Of a stretch of DNA of 64,000 nt, positions 1,256 to 8,456 are shown one piece after another. The notes beneath the pieces were generated by a model. The model had not been told where the DNA came from and searched no databases. It saw nothing but the letters and a program-made list of their open reading frames with translations. The position numbers were made by a program, and so were the translations under genes. Each line of letters starts with the position of its first letter. Positions within the stretch are counted from its first letter, which is position 1. The DNA lies in the NCBI GenBank assembly GCA_030682375.1, contig JAUXOL010000016.1, positions 82,577 to 146,576 on the forward strand, read 5' to 3'. The stretch is from Gallionella sp. GTDB lineage: Bacteria; Pseudomonadota; Gammaproteobacteria; Burkholderiales; Gallionellaceae.

Positions 1256-2104
1256 ATGGACGCCACACAAACGGAAATCGCATCCCGGGTGATCGCCCAG
1301 CTGGAGAGCGGACAAGCCGAACTGCCCACGCTGCCGGACATCGCGCTCAAACTGAAGGGCATGCTGGACGATCCCGACTTCTCCAACGAGCAGGTCGTCG
1401 GCCTGATAACTACCGACCCCGTCATCGCCCTGCATGTCATCCGCGCCGCCAACAGTGCCGCGCTATCGGCCGGACATCCGGTCTACAACCTGCGCGATGC
1501 CGTTTCCAGACTGGGATATCGCATGCTGCACGGGATGATCATCAACATCACGCTCAATCGGCTGTTCCGGGCCGCCAGCCCGCTCATCGACGCCAAGCTG
1601 AGAGAGCTGTGGAAACACAGCCGCGAGGTCGCCGCAAACAGTTACGTGCTGGCGCGCGACCAGTCCCGGATCAAGCCGGAGGTCGCGATGCTGGCAGGGC
1701 TGGTGCATAACATCGGGGCATTGCCGCTGTACATGTGCGCAGATCGCTATTACCCGCAGATAGCACCGGAGACGCTGGAAAGTCTGGTGAACGAATACGC
1801 CGCCGCTATCACACCACGCTTGCTTAAGAACTGGAATTTCCCGGAGGAGCTGATCGAGATCGTCGCCGGTCATGCCGCCCAGAAATATCCGGGCAACATC
1901 GAATCCGCGGATTACATCAATGTGCTGACCATAGCCAAGCTGCAGGCGCATGACCAGCAAGAAAACATCCCCTGGAGAAACATGCTGGCCGCGGAAAAGC
2001 TGGGCTACTACTTGGCCGACTGCCGCCGCTTCCTGACCAACCACACCGAGCAACTCGCTGCGGTAAAGAGCCTGTTGCTCATCACCGCCTCGCACCCGGC
2101 CTAG
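1256..2104 (+). CDS. HDOD domain-containing protein
   Basis: A 282-residue single-domain HDOD protein, a family of HD-superfamily-like domains that have lost most catalytic metal ligands and serve in bacterial signalling. The domain fills the protein: it opens with LPTLPDIALKLKGML, continues through VVGLITTDPVIALHVIRAANSA and AVSRLGYRMLHGMI, and includes AMLAGLVHNIGALPL, where the usual HD-type helix is recognisable. The start was chosen at ATG 1256 because AGGAG lies 6 bases upstream; a longer frame from 1226 lacks such a site. The gene is a lone unit, convergent with the cyclase/AsmA gene. Its upstream region shares a motif with two Cys-rich small-protein genes in this window. The specific signalling partner is not evident. 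Confidence 0.9.
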   Translation: MDATQTEIASRVIAQLESGQAELPTLPDIALKLKGMLDDPDFSNEQVVGLITTDPVIALHVIRAANSAALSAGHPVYNLRDAVSRLGYRMLHGMIINITLNRLFRAASPLIDAKLRELWKHSREVAANSYVLARDQSRIKPEVAMLAGLVHNIGALPLYMCADRYYPQIAPETLESLVNEYAAAITPRLLKNWNFPEELIEIVAGHAAQKYPGNIESADYINVLTIAKLQAHDQQENIPWRNMLAAEKLGYYLADCRRFLTNHTEQLAAVKSLLLITASHPA

Positions 2105-2152
2105 GCTGCCAGGCTGACAGACATCCGGATCGAATCCAAGCCGAATCCGATC

Positions 2153-5100
2153 CTAGCGTACGCGCAACGTCGGAATGCTGGTGGTTCCGCCGACCAGCAA
2201 CCCGGCCGATGCACTTCCCGAACGCATAGACAAGTCTGCGCCGACCTGGCCGGACAGTTGCTGGTTCGCCACATCCAGCGAGCCGGTAGCGCTCAGTACA
2301 CCGGCCTTCATCCGCAGCCTGCGGAAACGATAACTGCCGTTCTCGAAACTCAGGTCGCCGCTCAGTTCGTCGAAGTGGGTGCGCCCCCCCGGCTGGCTTT
2401 CGCGGCTGCGCAACCGTGTCGTCTCGACGATATCGAAGCCGCTGATCACGCCCTTGCTGACGACGAACGAGCCTTCCATGATTGAAGAATCGACCAGTTT
2501 CGCCAGGCTGTCCGCCTTCATCCGGAAACGGGCCGAGCCATCCATGTCGCCGCTCAGTGCCGTGCCTAGCTTCTGCACGGTGACGACCTTGGCGACCAGA
2601 TCGCCCTTGGCCTGCCAGCCGTCGGTCCAAGATATATCCAGATTGCCGAGCAAGCGTCCGTCCATGATGCTGCCGTCCAATTCGGAGACGATCAGCCGAT
2701 CGCGGCTCAGTTCGCCGGTGGCTATCAGCTCGTCGAACGTCCAGGCCGGCAACAGCGGCAACGCGCTGCCGCGCACCGATATCACGGCCTTCATCCTGCC
2801 CTCCGCCACGGCATCGATGTCCAGTGCCAGCTTGCCATCGGCGGTATGCAATTTCGCCTTGGTGAACAGCCCCGTCGCATCGAAATTCAACTCGCCTGCA
2901 ATGCCGGATAGTTGCAGGCCGTCGGCCTGCAACGTGCCTTGGCTCAACTCGACATGCCCCACGGGATATTGAGTATCGACGGCCATCTGCAGCAGCCAGT
3001 CCGGCAACTGCGGCAGCACCGCGCCGTTGACCTGAACCCCATCCAGCGCGAGGCTGTCGATAGCCTTGGTCGATGAGAACAAGGCAGAGATCGCGAAGTC
3101 CAGCCGCGCCAGTTTCACTTGAACCTGCCCGGCCTCGCCTATCGAGACATCGCTCATTTCCAGCCGCGGCATCGGCAGTATCCGGCCGGATATCTGCCCG
3201 ATATGCACCGGCTGTTTCAGTCGCATAGCAAGCGTCTGCTCGATACCGTTCGCATAGTCACGCATCGGCAACACGAAAGGCGCGACGAACAGCGCGACTA
3301 TCATCAAAACGAACAGTCCCGCACCGACCTTGCCCCAATGGATGGGCTTGCGCCGCGCGCGAACCACCGGCTTTTCTTCGCGCGGCACCGGCTGAGGCGC
3401 ATGAGCGGCATGCTCTTCCTTCTTCATGGCGGCACGCTGCTCAGCCTTGCTCCAGACCTTGGCCTGCGCCGCCGCCATTGCCGCGACATCTTCCTCGCTG
3501 GGCATATGCGCAGCGGCGGCAGGTTTCGCTTCTTGCCTGACGGGCGGCTCGACCTGTGCGGGCGGAGCGGCCTTCTCGACGCTCGCAGCCTGTGGCGGCG
3601 CCTCTACCGCAGGCGCTTTCGGAGGAGAGACCTCGTTCATATCCATGAGCGTGATCTCGGTGAACGCCCGCGACACCGGCTCGGGCGGAGATATGGGCTC
3701 TGCCTGTTCCGGCGGTGCATTCGAAGTGACGCCGGTCTCGCTTGCGGAAAAAACGAACGGATCGAGCGTGATCGGCGGCAGCGTCTCGACAGTATGCGGT
3801 TTCACTTCCGCCACGGAAGGATCGACCAGTTCGTAGACCGCATGCTCGCGCCCATGCTTGTCCTGTTGCTGCCCGCGATACTGGAACAGGTCCGCGTATT
3901 CCTCGCTCAGCCTGGAGATGAAATCGTAATACGGCCGCGAGATGTAGATCTGGTCGATGCCGGCGAAGCTCATGATGCGCTGCGCATCGTTGATGCCGTC
4001 CCCGACCATGTTGCTCTGACCGTTCATGTCCTTGACGATACTGACCGGCCCCAGATGAATGCCGGTGCGCACCTCCAGCTCGGGGTAATCCTTGTGCTGA
4101 TGACCCGTCACCACTTCACGGAACTCCCGCGCCACTTGCAGCGCATCTTCAGGATGCTGCAGGAAGCCGATCGCGGCACCGTCGCCGGTATCCAGGATGA
4201 TGCGCTCGTCGTCGCCCAGCTTCGCCAGGCAATCCGACACCAGCTGATTGAACAGTTTCTTGATCTTGATCTGCTTGTTGACCGGCTGCCTGGTATAGCC
4301 GACCACATCGAAGAACAGCACCGTCGCGCTGGTCGAACGCTGGTACTCGGCCCCGGCCGACTTCAGCGTGGCCGCCATTCTGGCAAGCCGCTGCGCTTCT
4401 TGCTCGGCCTTTAGCGACGCTTCTTCGATGCGTGCCGCATCGGCTTCCCGCTGCACCTTCTGCCCGGCATCTTCATGCACCTGCGCCTTGGCCTCTGCCG
4501 CTTGACGCTTGAGTTGCTCCGCATCTTCGCGCGCCTGCTCGGCATCCTGCTCCGCCTTGACCCGCGCCGTCTCGACTTCCTGCAGCACCTGCAACATCGC
4601 GGCTTCGGCGTCGATCTCAATCTCGGCCTCTGCTGCCTGCCGCTTGGATAATTCGGCCTCTGCCTTCTCCTGTGCCTCGACGAGTTCGGCTCGCGCCCGC
4701 GCAGCTTCCTGCTCCGCTTTCAGTCGCGTTTCTTCCGCTTGCGTCTTGGCCCGTTGCTCGACTTCTTCGCGTGCCAGAGCGGCAGCCTCGGCATGACGCT
4801 TGGCCTGCTCGGCCTCTTCGCGCGCCGTGGCCACATCCTGCTCTGCCTTCAGGCGCAAGGCTTCTGCCTCCTGCTGCGCCTTCAGCTTCGCCGTCTCCGC
4901 CTCCTCGCGAACCTTGGCTTCTATTTCCGCGTGCGCCAGCGCCTCGGCTTCCGCTCTGGCCTGCGCCTCCGCCACCAGACGCTTGGCTTGCTCGGCCTCC
5001 TCGCGCGCCGTGATGGCCTCTTCCCTTGCCAGGGCCGCATCATGTTCCGCCGTCAGGCGCAATGCTTCTGCCTCCTGCTGCGCCATCAGCTTCGCCGCCT

Positions 5101-6358
5101 CGATCTCCTTGCGCGCCCTGACTTCTGCCTCGGCATGTGCAACGGCTTCGGCCTCGGCCTTGGCCTGGGCTTCCGCAGCCTGCTGCCTGGCTTTCTCAGC
5201 CTCCGCCTTAGCCTGCGCCCCGGCCAGCTCTGCTCTTGCCTGAGCGGCCTCCTGCTCCGCCTTCAGACGCGCGGCTTCTGCCGCCTGCCGCTTGGCCTGC
5301 TCGGCCTCCTCCCGCGCGGCGATCGACTCCTGTTCCGCCTTGAGACGCGCAGTTTCGGCCTCCTGCTGCGCCTTCAGCTTCACCGCCTCTATCTCCTTGC
5401 GCGCGCTGGCCGCCGCCTCGGCATAGGCACGCGATTCTGCTTCGGCTTTCGCCTGGGCTCGTGCGAGCTCGGCCCGTATCTGGGCAGCTTCCTGCTCTGC
5501 TTTCAGTCTTGCCGCCTCGGCTTCTTCCCGCGCCCGAACCGCATCCTGTTCCGCCTTGAGACTCGCCGCTTCTGCTTCCTGCTGCGCCTTCAATTTAGCC
5601 GCCTCGATTTCCTTGCGCGCACTGGCTGCCGCCTCGGCATGCGCGCGCGCTTCGGCCTCGGCCTTTGCCTGAGCCTGTGCCATCAGTTTTCTGGCCTGTT
5701 CGGCCACCTTGCGAGCGCCAGCCGCTTCATGCTCGGCCTTGAGGCGCGCCGCTTCGGCCTCCTGCTGCGCCTTCAACGTCGCGACTTCGATTTCCTTGCG
5801 CGCCTTGGCCTCCGCCGCGGCATGCGCACGCGCCTCGGCCTCGGCCTTTGCCTGAGCCTCCGCCAATTCAGCGCGCACCTTGGCTGTCTCCTGCTCCGCC
5901 TTCAACCTTACCGCTTCGGCTTGCGCCTCAGCATCCTTTTTCAACCTTTCGGCTTCCAGCTTCGCCCCCTCGGCGGCCAGTGCCTCGGGAGTGGGCGCAC
6001 GGAACGCAGCGGTGAAATCCAGCTCGTCGAGATTAGCCACCGAGGGTTGCTTCATCGCGGGAGATACCCCGGAAGCGGCAGTCGGAGGTTTTTTGACAGG
6101 AACGACCATCTTCGGAACATTACCGGCGTGCGCCGCACGTGCCTTGTCCTGGATGAAACCCAATCGCAGCAGATCCTTGAAGGCATCGTCCAGAATCGCC
6201 CGCAGACTGGGGGCCGCGCGCTTGCCGATCTCGCCGAACGACGAACTTCCATCCACCATCAGCAGGGCGCGTCTGATGTCCCCCGACAACGACTGGCTTC
6301 TGCCGCGAATTTCTTCTTCGCCCTTGTCCGTTCTGACGAAAATGATTTTGCTATCCAT
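2153..6358 (-). CDS. Coiled-coil / class III nucleotide cyclase / AsmA-like fusion protein
   Basis: A 1401-residue protein with an unusual order of parts. Residues 1-75 form a small N-terminal domain (IFVRTDKGEEEIRGR, LLMVDG). Roughly 130-675 are an Ala/Glu/Lys/Gln-rich coiled coil of imperfect repeats. A class III adenylate/guanylate cyclase domain follows (about 680-865) with the first metal Asp in FFDVVGYT, the second in LDTGDG, and the Asn and Arg of GDGINDAQR, so catalysis is plausible. A Pro/Glu-rich linker leads to one membrane segment near 1007-1030 (GLFVLMIVALFVAPF). The remaining ~370 residues resemble AsmA-family C-terminal regions (ALPQL, TGSLDVANQQLSGQV) and would be periplasmic, with the cyclase in the cytoplasm. 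It is downstream of, and probably co-transcribed with, a second AsmA-like gene 38 bases away. Product (cAMP or cGMP) is unknown: the usual Lys in the purine pocket is replaced by Asp. Confidence 0.85.
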   Translation of the reverse strand: MDSKIIFVRTDKGEEEIRGRSQSLSGDIRRALLMVDGSSSFGEIGKRAAPSLRAILDDAFKDLLRLGFIQDKARAAHAGNVPKMVVPVKKPPTAASGVSPAMKQPSVANLDELDFTAAFRAPTPEALAAEGAKLEAERLKKDAEAQAEAVRLKAEQETAKVRAELAEAQAKAEAEARAHAAAEAKARKEIEVATLKAQQEAEAARLKAEHEAAGARKVAEQARKLMAQAQAKAEAEARAHAEAAASARKEIEAAKLKAQQEAEAASLKAEQDAVRAREEAEAARLKAEQEAAQIRAELARAQAKAEAESRAYAEAAASARKEIEAVKLKAQQEAETARLKAEQESIAAREEAEQAKRQAAEAARLKAEQEAAQARAELAGAQAKAEAEKARQQAAEAQAKAEAEAVAHAEAEVRARKEIEAAKLMAQQEAEALRLTAEHDAALAREEAITAREEAEQAKRLVAEAQARAEAEALAHAEIEAKVREEAETAKLKAQQEAEALRLKAEQDVATAREEAEQAKRHAEAAALAREEVEQRAKTQAEETRLKAEQEAARARAELVEAQEKAEAELSKRQAAEAEIEIDAEAAMLQVLQEVETARVKAEQDAEQAREDAEQLKRQAAEAKAQVHEDAGQKVQREADAARIEEASLKAEQEAQRLARMAATLKSAGAEYQRSTSATVLFFDVVGYTRQPVNKQIKIKKLFNQLVSDCLAKLGDDERIILDTGDGAAIGFLQHPEDALQVAREFREVVTGHQHKDYPELEVRTGIHLGPVSIVKDMNGQSNMVGDGINDAQRIMSFAGIDQIYISRPYYDFISRLSEEYADLFQYRGQQQDKHGREHAVYELVDPSVAEVKPHTVETLPPITLDPFVFSASETGVTSNAPPEQAEPISPPEPVSRAFTEITLMDMNEVSPPKAPAVEAPPQAASVEKAAPPAQVEPPVRQEAKPAAAAHMPSEEDVAAMAAAQAKVWSKAEQRAAMKKEEHAAHAPQPVPREEKPVVRARRKPIHWGKVGAGLFVLMIVALFVAPFVLPMRDYANGIEQTLAMRLKQPVHIGQISGRILPMPRLEMSDVSIGEAGQVQVKLARLDFAISALFSSTKAIDSLALDGVQVNGAVLPQLPDWLLQMAVDTQYPVGHVELSQGTLQADGLQLSGIAGELNFDATGLFTKAKLHTADGKLALDIDAVAEGRMKAVISVRGSALPLLPAWTFDELIATGELSRDRLIVSELDGSIMDGRLLGNLDISWTDGWQAKGDLVAKVVTVQKLGTALSGDMDGSARFRMKADSLAKLVDSSIMEGSFVVSKGVISGFDIVETTRLRSRESQPGGRTHFDELSGDLSFENGSYRFRRLRMKAGVLSATGSLDVANQQLSGQVGADLSMRSGSASAGLLVGGTTSIPTLRVR
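4340..5950 (-). repeat. Imperfect coding repeats of the coiled-coil region
   Basis: About 1.6 kb inside the cyclase/AsmA gene is built from degenerate repeats encoding variants of ARLKAEQEAA, AQAKAEAEARAHAEA and ARKEIEAAKLKAQQEAE. The protein pattern is that of a long continuous coiled coil. The DNA repeats diverge by many silent changes, so they are not a recent tandem expansion. Confidence 0.8.
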
Positions 6359-6396
6359 ATCTTGATATTAACCGTTGACTTGCCGCTCGATCGAAA

Positions 6397-8106
6397 TCAC
6401 TGCGTTACTTTTGATTTTGGCGCGACTTGCTTGCCGTTCGCCTTGTTGCCGAACAATTTGTTCATGAAGCCGCCCAGCTTGACCCCAAGCGCCGTACCCA
6501 GTCCGGGGCCGAGCACAGCCGTACCGACTGCAGCTCCGGCCAGGGCCGCCCTGCTGACATGAACCTGCGGATGCTCCAGCGTACCTGCAACCACCAGCGG
6601 CATGCTGACTAGACCGACGGTTCCCTTCACATCCACATCCAGCACACCGTTCAATTGCAACGCCGGATTCATGTCTATCCTACCCGTTGCATTCAGGGCG
6701 CCGGACGATATCTTCAGTTCTCCAAAATGGTAACCGTAAGCATCCACGTTCAACGATCCGGTCAAGTCGCTGAAGCGGGTCACACCGCCCGCAGCCTTGC
6801 CGGAATTGCTCACGGCCTGCGCCAGATCGACCTTGCTCAGCGTCCCGTCGCGCAAATGGAACTTCGCTGCCAGCTTCAGATTCTCCGGGAAGCGGTCGAG
6901 TCTGTCCAGATTCATCGACAGCCTCGTCTGACTCTCCATACGCCCGGTGAACAACACCTCGTTGGTCAGCGCCTCAACCAAGGGACGCATGCTGATGTTG
7001 CGCGCCAAGAGGTCGGCATTCAGCACGGATTTCCTTCTGTCCATGCGCACCTCGCCGGAAAGACTCCCCGCATACAGCGCAGTTTTCAACCCGGTCAGAT
7101 CAAGCCGCGCCGGACTTAGCACGACATGTGATTGTATGGAGTCTATTGCGAGAGGCTGCCTGAAACTTTCGGAAACCAGCGCCGTGACACCGGTCATACG
7201 CAAGTCGCCGGCGAAACGCGCACCTTCCGCCAAGCCATTCAAGCTATCGGCACGGCAATCAAGCTTGCCCTTGAATGACAGCAAGCCGGTCAACCCTACC
7301 GGCCTGCCCAGCAACGCCATCAACCGTTCCAGAGGAACCTCGGCCTTTCTTATCTGGGCACGCACATCGAGTCCATTCAAGAATCCCAGTCGCCCGCCAC
7401 CCTCGATGCGCAGCCCCTGCGAAACGACCGAGAATCTCTGCGCCACCAATTCCTCCCGCCCTAACTCTCCGTCCAATTGCAATTCGTCGATAGGCAATTT
7501 CGAAAATCGGGAAAATTGCGGCGCAATCCAGTCCCTGGCTCGCACCTGCACGGAGAAACGCCGATCCGGCAACGGCGACAGAACGACATTCAGCCTCTGG
7601 TCATCCAACGCAAACCATGCTCGCGGCAACACACCCGGCCCGGCGAACTCGAGCTTGCCTTCCAGCGGACCGATCGCCATCTCCGGTGCCAGCAAAATCA
7701 ACCCCGACAGCCTCAACTCGCGCACGGCGGCACCCTGCTTGACGACAGGGGCATTGGAGAACGCATCCGCCAGTCGACTCAATTGAGCCAAGTGTGCCGC
7801 ACCATCCCGCACCTCGACATTCATCGCCAACTCCCCGGTCAGCAAATCCGACAAGACCGGCGACACATCGACCGAGCGCAACGCGATGCCGTCCTGCCCG
7901 CCCAGCAACACATCACGCAACTCCAGATGCGGCAAAGGCAGCACGGCCGCACGCAGGCTCGCGACACGAACCGGAACCTGCAGCCGCGCACTCAGCGTCC
8001 GCTCCACCTCCGGGATATAGGTATTCAACGGCGTCAAATAGACCGCAAGCATTGCCAGCATCAACAAGGCGAGCAGAGCAATCAGCAGGCGCTTCAGCAA
8101 ACGCAT
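6397..8106 (-). CDS. AsmA family protein
   Basis: A 569-residue AsmA-like protein, a family of inner-membrane-anchored proteins with a large periplasmic part built of beta-rich repeats and linked to outer-membrane lipid and protein homeostasis. The first ~25 residues are a signal anchor (LLKRLLIALLALLMLAMLAVYL), followed by the family-typical entry NTYIPEVERTLSARLQVPVRV. Near the C-terminus lie GALNATGRIDMNPALQLNG and a glycine-rich tail (GAAVGTAVLGPGLGTALGVKLGG, shown here in part). It is the first gene of a minus-strand pair with the cyclase/AsmA fusion, and its N-terminal region is similar in plan to that protein's AsmA part (compare VLPLPHLELRDV with ILPMPRLEMSDV), suggesting duplication. 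Its exact cargo is unknown. Confidence 0.85.
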   Translation of the reverse strand: MRLLKRLLIALLALLMLAMLAVYLTPLNTYIPEVERTLSARLQVPVRVASLRAAVLPLPHLELRDVLLGGQDGIALRSVDVSPVLSDLLTGELAMNVEVRDGAAHLAQLSRLADAFSNAPVVKQGAAVRELRLSGLILLAPEMAIGPLEGKLEFAGPGVLPRAWFALDDQRLNVVLSPLPDRRFSVQVRARDWIAPQFSRFSKLPIDELQLDGELGREELVAQRFSVVSQGLRIEGGGRLGFLNGLDVRAQIRKAEVPLERLMALLGRPVGLTGLLSFKGKLDCRADSLNGLAEGARFAGDLRMTGVTALVSESFRQPLAIDSIQSHVVLSPARLDLTGLKTALYAGSLSGEVRMDRRKSVLNADLLARNISMRPLVEALTNEVLFTGRMESQTRLSMNLDRLDRFPENLKLAAKFHLRDGTLSKVDLAQAVSNSGKAAGGVTRFSDLTGSLNVDAYGYHFGELKISSGALNATGRIDMNPALQLNGVLDVDVKGTVGLVSMPLVVAGTLEHPQVHVSRAALAGAAVGTAVLGPGLGTALGVKLGGFMNKLFGNKANGKQVAPKSKVTQ

Positions 8107-8167
8107 AAAAATCCAAATTTGATGTTGACCGAACTGGGCAAAATCACTATCATGCGCACCTCTTCAT

Positions 8168-8243
8168 TCCCTGATAGCTCAGTCGGTAGAGCGACGGACT
8201 GTTAATCCGCAGGTCCCTGGTTCGAGTCCAGGTCGGGGAGCCA
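8168..8243 (+). tRNA. tRNA-Asn (anticodon GTT)
   Basis: A 76-base cloverleaf with acceptor stem TCCCTGA/TCGGGGA (one G-T pair), D-arm AGCTCAGTCGGTAGAGC, anticodon GTT at 8201-8203, T-arm GGTTCGAGTCC, discriminator G and encoded CCA at 8241-8243. The anticodon reads AAC/AAT codons. A terminator follows at once. Confidence 0.97.
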
Positions 8244-8251
8244 AGAAAATC

Positions 8252-8280
8252 AAGGCCTTGCAGCAATGCAAGGCCTTTTC
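8252..8280 (+). terminator. Terminator after tRNA-Asn
   Basis: A perfect 11-bp stem AAGGCCTTGCA/TGCAAGGCCTT with GCAA loop, followed by TTCTTTT, begins 9 bases after the tRNA CCA end. Confidence 0.9.
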
Positions 8281-8456
8281 TTTTGCGCTCGACATTCGAA
8301 AGTCCGCAGCTCGGCATTGAAAACCATGCGTTGCAATGGTTCCAGAGGCAAAAAAATCCGATGGTGAGTGTCCCACTAGTCCGTGAGTGGGGTATGGCAA
8401 TGCGCTTCATGAGGGCATTGTAATGCCTCGGGGAAATCCTTGGGGGATGGCTGCGA

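Follow-up and report, generated by a model that had tools for sequence, protein, structure and literature searches.

Within a 64,000-nucleotide stretch of a Gallionella sp. contig (JAUXOL010000016.1, positions 82,577 to 146,576), here called the window and numbered from its first letter, a single open reading frame joins a class III nucleotide cyclase to a domain of the AsmA family. As judged from sequence, by domain order, catalytic residues, AsmA match, conservation, selection and grouping in one clade, this cyclase-AsmA fusion is a conserved membrane protein of iron-oxidising Gallionella-type bacteria. The question then is what such a join would accomplish. We put at about even the chance that the protein operates as a class III cyclase of the inner membrane, with a periplasmic C-terminus, an AsmA-type lipid groove, that serves as a receptor or as a clustering anchor. 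Some functional link between the envelope and nucleotide chemistry is likely, because the join between cyclase and AsmA is no artefact, is conserved and most plausibly arose once.

The first-pass annotation of this DNA had described, in one frame, an N-terminal domain, a long coiled coil, a cyclase, a membrane helix and an AsmA-like region, and this layout is borne out, with a helical rod at the place of the coiled coil and the frame lying on the minus strand. Its parts, together with the gene immediately upstream and the evidence for each, are as follows.

2153..6358, minus strand: whole fused gene, an open frame of 1401 amino acids.
6134..6358, minus strand: N-terminal winged-helix-like domain, residues 1-75 (conserved in 16 rows; structure model; VIA-align).
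4364..5992, minus strand: charged helical rod rich in Ala and Glu, residues 123-665 (composition, periodicity and charge pairs at i,i+4).
3833..4345, minus strand: class III cyclase domain, residues 672-842 (PF00211 over cut-off; alignments).
3344..3832, minus strand: Pro/Ala-rich linker, residues 843-1005 (translation; spacing in relatives).
3272..3328, minus strand: membrane helix, residues 1011-1029 (hydropathy).
2156..3268, minus strand: predicted periplasmic domain of the AsmA family, residues 1031-1401 (PF05170; all-beta model).
6397..8106, minus strand: stand-alone AsmA-family gene of 569 amino acids, 38 base pairs upstream (PF05170, 46.7 bits).

The join itself recurs widely. A profile search with the cyclase found a match in 134 of the 158 genomes of the family; among the matches listed, at least 55 family genomes carry it inside a frame of at least 700 amino acids, and in all 55 (the window and 54 others) the AsmA-like part lies in the same frame, six of these frames ending at a contig edge, that of L129 inside the AsmA part. 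An order-level search outside the family matched 64 of 399 genomes, and the fusion is found there in genome G604 (L164) and in eight of the nine f212 genomes with a match, these belonging to two other families. Read whole, the f212 form has no long rod, its cyclase beginning at residue 99 or 108 (L167, L168), and its match to the N-terminal domain is weak, at 22-24 bits. In L158 both the N-terminal domain and the rod are absent, with cyclase and AsmA part retained. A sample of the class yielded subtype matches in 9 of 321 genomes, the fused protein's own genome included, and those beyond the own genome are short proteins without an AsmA part. In all, 73 fused frames reduce to 58 distinct proteins, that of the window among them.

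This distribution bears directly on the concern, raised in the first-pass annotation, that a frameshift artefact had produced the long frame. An error of sequencing or assembly joining separate genes could draw on L111 (5104-8815), in which the N-terminal domain, together with a portion of the rod, occupies a frame adjacent to the cyclase-AsmA frame, by a real split or a frameshift, and on L015, a chimeric contig with a piece of the window's cyclase; set against the one-frame join in all 55 family genomes, in eight of nine f212 genomes and in G604, the probability of such an error is negligible. The joined frame recurs in 54 family genomes besides the window's, and the rate of nonsynonymous substitution (dN) lies well below the synonymous rate (dS) in N-terminal, cyclase and C-terminal domains alike. 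As to L015, a contig labelled Elusimicrobia, its first 474 bases (L015:1-474) are 98.5% identical to the cyclase of the window gene and run in frame into sequence that by eye resembles an Obg-type GTPase; it is probably an assembly chimera and was excluded from the counts.

The cyclase domain is recognised by PF00211 (Guanylate_cyc) at 23.1 bits against a cut-off of 21.9, over residues 672-818, in a whole-protein Pfam scan and again over cut-off in a genome-wide search, its nearest solved chains by profile being the catalytic domain of rhodopsin-guanylyl cyclase and Ma1120. Alignments place the metal sites at Asp684 and Asp726 and the transition-state pair at Asn790/Arg794, in agreement with the initial description, which had noted the two metal Asp residues and the Asn/Arg pair of a class III enzyme. 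D684, N790 and R794 are each conserved in 57 of the 58 distinct fused proteins and D726 in 55, with all four intact in 55. The base pocket had been described as having its purine Lys replaced by Asp: the loss of Lys holds, the identity of the substitute was off by one. On alignment with Ma1120 and with the genome's own canonical cyclases, the purine-Lys column, four residues ahead of the second metal Asp, is occupied by Leu722, and the Asp in question, Asp723 (Asp in 89 of 90 subtype rows), adjoins it. The Asp/Cys partner position is Asn783, an Asn in 88 of the 90 rows. With Leu722 and Asn783, the domain possesses neither the adenylate-type Lys/Asp nor the guanylate-type Glu/Cys base pair, and we therefore class it neither as adenylate nor as guanylate cyclase. 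It would belong to a class III subtype marked by an unusual base pocket, for which neither specificity for ATP can be taken for granted nor the product predicted.

Altered base pockets can mean pyrimidine substrates, as the available part of a study of Pycsar cyclases indicates (PMC11224242). PycC, as described there, has a class III core with altered base-pocket residues, like the fused protein, whereas its specificity residues, F100/R142/Q144 or F60/K104/F109, differ from the Leu/Asp/Asn set seen here (PMC11224242, same part). The PADLOC models gave no family at E<=1 with the fused protein, no search having been aimed at Pycsar receptor genes. A tblastn comparison of the cyclase (3833-4348) with plasmid records returned 13 records, mostly rhizobial and all below 60% identity, the ten that were listed lying at 29-33%.

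Beyond the cyclase, hydropathy reveals the single membrane helix that had been predicted, at residues 1011-1029, and one helix in each of 15 relatives too. A positively charged stretch, RARRKPIHWGK, stands directly ahead of it, and by the positive-inside rule the cyclase should therefore be cytoplasmic and the AsmA part periplasmic. By this predicted topology and an all-beta model, the helix is followed by a beta-rich domain, as the AsmA family requires. The proposed AsmA-like region is confirmed by the C-terminal 397 residues, which match PF05170 at 42.5 bits (cut-off 29.8), and a genome-wide search finds AsmA over cut-off within the fused frame at 32.7 bits; in the alignment of C-termini A5, window included, all 14 members match PF05170 at E<=0.01. 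The AsmA part had escaped Pfam and PDB sequence scans run with the entire protein, and emerged when the C-terminus was scanned alone. In full-protein scans of relatives, L167 shows AsmA (35.2) and cyclase (29.4) both over cut-off, and L158 shows AsmA over (34.3) and cyclase below it (15.4). A PDB sequence profile of the C-terminal domain gave nothing convincing (best E 0.29). A GspN-like NCBIfam match was rejected as sub-threshold, at 19.5 against 50 bits. Structure models cover the two ends of the protein, the N-terminal domain and the C-terminus. That of the C-terminus, with a predicted local distance difference test score (pLDDT) of 80.9, is all-beta past its first two helices, save for short helices, and its predicted strands alternate hydrophobic and polar faces to a degree reached in 1 of 2000 shuffles.

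A tree of 90 cyclase domains gathers the fused and f212 rows into one group of 64 rows (support 100/96), and a single origin of the fusion appears probable. The tree held 57 distinct fused cyclase domains, seven short-form rows having been omitted as duplicates; seven f212 rows were labelled unfused when it was made, their C-termini being unchecked at the time, and with those labels three changes were counted, not one. Six of these seven carry the AsmA part and L086 shows none. On the branch next to the 64-row group stands L093 (the L169 protein), whose cyclase is accompanied by a membrane helix and by a PEGA-like end scoring below cut-off; among other unfused relatives PEGA is over cut-off in L165 and L166 and just below it in L033. 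The unfused relatives L033, L165, L169 and L028 share the altered pocket of the fused protein and, instead of AsmA, have a PEGA-like or FHA end, with no match to the N-terminal domain. In L033, L165 and L169 a predicted membrane helix follows the cyclase, as in the fused protein, and of these three L165 alone has PEGA over cut-off. Since unfused relatives have a membrane helix and PEGA-like ends, the subtype seems to swap its periplasmic end, AsmA being one such end. L033 (G000:C15:186543-187052) is a paralogue from the own genome, with membrane helix, PEGA-like end and altered pocket.

All three domains are under purifying selection, dN being well below dS throughout 11 pairs, in two of which dS is saturated for the cyclase. 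Between the window and L001, dN/dS is 0.17 for the N-terminal domain, 0.06 for the cyclase, the most constrained of the three, and 0.20 for the C-terminus.

On the N-terminal side of the cyclase lies the segment that had been taken for a coiled coil of some 540 residues. A long helical rod is indeed present, the coiled coil less clearly so: residues 123-665 comprise 33% Ala, with 84 opposite-charge against 7 same-charge i,i+4 pairs, a pairing of the type of a single alpha-helix, and the hydrophobic signal peaks at 3.58 residues, where the heptad period is 3.5. With this peak and this excess of charge pairs, the rod would be no less well described as a single alpha-helix, or as a straight bundle rich in Ala, than as a heptad coiled coil. 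Among 49 rods of at least 120 residues, 48 have a charge-pair excess of Z at least 3.3 against shuffles, and the hydrophobic peaks are scattered in a comparison made without a known coiled coil as control. The spacing between N-terminal domain and cyclase ranges from 29 to 913 residues across the distinct fused proteins. At a rise of 1.5 Å per residue, a helix of 543 residues would extend about 80 nm.

The N-terminal domain, conserved in all 16 rows of alignment A3, is modelled with a pLDDT of 76.6. VIA-align relates this model, with Z up to 8.1, to winged-helix chains (GATOR1 subunits, MccB), values of about 6-8 being middling by the tool's own warning, and on these rows we call residues 1-75 winged-helix-like. 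No Foldseek row for the model reached E<=1e-3 (best E 0.22), and a PDB sequence profile of the domain gave nothing convincing (best E 0.29). The domain is present in 17 of 274 sampled class genomes, own genome included. Outside the own genome it is seen in short frames of 90 to 337 amino acids (L066-L081, other class members).

How might these parts work together? We infer topology, activity, product, lipid binding and control by dimerisation as follows. At the inner membrane the AsmA-like end would bind lipid, or pair with itself or with the neighbouring AsmA protein, and in so doing gather or dimerise the chains such that two cyclase domains meet. The active sites of class III enzymes form between two protomers, and the paired domains could then make a cyclic nucleotide to be read by the cell's proteins that bind cyclic nucleoside monophosphates (cNMPs). 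The winged-helix-like domain and the rod may provide a second, cytoplasmic input, or reach. A stricter version, in which lipid loading or partner binding of the AsmA-like groove directly sets cyclic-nucleotide synthesis, we hold to be doubtful.

Several observations weigh against such a receptor or clustering role. From the end of the cyclase to the predicted membrane helix there are between 84 (L168) and 237 (L135) residues, and to the AsmA core 133-291 in 57 of the 58 proteins (350 in L007, where the AsmA match begins late); so long a linker, Pro/Ala-rich in the window, argues against rigid conformational coupling, and we therefore favour control by clustering or proximity over a rigid conformational signal. 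The C-terminal model found no row at E<=1e-3 in Foldseek, the best being a porin at E 8e-3, and VIA-align mixes apolipoprotein B, LPD-3, Vps13, Atg2 and TamAB with many porins; as these fold neighbours are unspecific, membership of the AsmA family stands on the profile, not on fold comparison. With its roughly 370 residues, the periplasmic part probably cannot span the periplasm, a point that the authors of PMC10900882, in the available part of that paper, made for the 361-residue PA2708. Of the 90 subtype rows, 89 have Leu, Ile or Val at the purine-Lys position and one has Ser, and since that Lys is thus missing throughout the subtype, the product may be something other than cyclic AMP. In the related fused proteins L159, L161 and L162 metal, Asn or Arg sites are changed, possibly a loss of activity with the fusion retained. 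Lastly, in 26 of the 46 cases with readable upstream DNA there is no asmA-family frame upstream of the fused gene. The proposal of the first-pass annotation that the link couples envelope state to signalling accordingly stands in part: the conserved join of one origin speaks for it, the coupling itself we infer, and the changed sites in three of 58 proteins weaken it, as does the long linker for a rigid form of coupling.

Two rivals are to be taken seriously. In the first, which we regard as possible, the AsmA-like end would do no more than tether the cyclase to the inner membrane, perhaps close to sites of lipid transport, and regulation would come from the cytoplasmic winged-helix-like domain by way of the helix that runs into the cyclase, an arrangement known from class III cyclases whose sensors are N-terminal. 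The long stretch between cyclase and membrane helix suits this view, as does the retention of the N-terminal domain in all rows of A3 and, even without a long rod, in the f212 proteins; however, purifying selection acts along the length of the AsmA part, and every member of A5 matches the AsmA family, which exceeds the needs of an anchor, and L158 dispenses with N-terminal domain and rod, yet has cyclase and AsmA. In the second, the information would flow from inside out, the cyclase-like domain being a nucleotide-binding switch that controls an AsmA-like lipid handler from the cytoplasm with no messenger. The altered base pocket and the three proteins L159, L161 and L162 are compatible with this; we nevertheless think it improbable, given the intact metal Asp pair and Asn/Arg in 55 of 58 proteins and a flexible linker that poses the same problem in this direction.

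The AsmA-family gene upstream, on the same strand, resembles the C-terminus of the fused protein and is a probable operon partner; a stand-alone asmA-family frame is upstream in 20 of the 46 readable cases, including two short frames (98 and 101 amino acids), one cut frame and, in L111, a separate frame of the N-terminal domain in between. Twelve of the 58 were set aside for this count (seven with no room, five ended at a contig edge). Domains that bind cNMPs occur at 14 places in the genome, over cut-off at 11 of them, and cyclases at seven, so that a cyclic-nucleotide signal would probably find readers. Clustering of neighbours over 62 loci, some of which are the same DNA twice, shows asmA-family frames recurring and a convergent downstream cluster, including the window's aminotransferase frame, at 35 of the 62, and reveals no partner accounting for function. 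Scans of 1900..8400 gave two promoters (mean 1.2, sd, the standard deviation, 1.1) and four terminators (mean 5.3, sd 2.4), both near chance. An HDOD-domain gene (PF08668; 1226-2104, plus strand) converges on the fused gene and lies between it and the aminotransferase-like frame, and a tRNA-Asn gene occupies 8168-8243 on the plus strand, a little upstream of the minus-strand asmA-family gene.

The fused protein shares with class III adenylate/guanylate cyclases (PF00211) the core domain, the two metal Asp and the transition-state Asn/Arg, and differs from them in Leu at the Lys position, Asn at the Asp/Cys position and a C-terminal membrane helix with an AsmA-family end. With the AsmA family (PF05170), as exemplified by E. 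coli AsmA, it shares an order of membrane helix, N-terminal in that family, then beta-rich AsmA domain, whereas its AsmA part is short (about 370 residues) and stands behind a predicted cytoplasmic cyclase part of 1000 residues. The predicted beta groove may resemble that of bridge-like lipid transfer proteins, VIA-align giving Z of 5.6 with TamAB (9xdd), 7.2 with Vps13 (6cbc), 7.0 with Atg2 (6a9e) and 8.6 with LPD-3 (9cap), porins scoring as well as several of these; in contrast to TamB, Vps13, Atg2 and LPD-3, it is probably too short to bridge membranes.

Our search of the literature, whose coverage is incomplete, found no description of a fusion combining AsmA with a cyclase, and AsmA is unmentioned in the available part of PMC4886424. 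The fusion suggests, short of proof, a link between envelope state and signalling. A single conserved protein that connects a nucleotide cyclase with an AsmA-family groove would give direct experimental access to the way in which Gram-negative cells report on lipid flow to the outer membrane.

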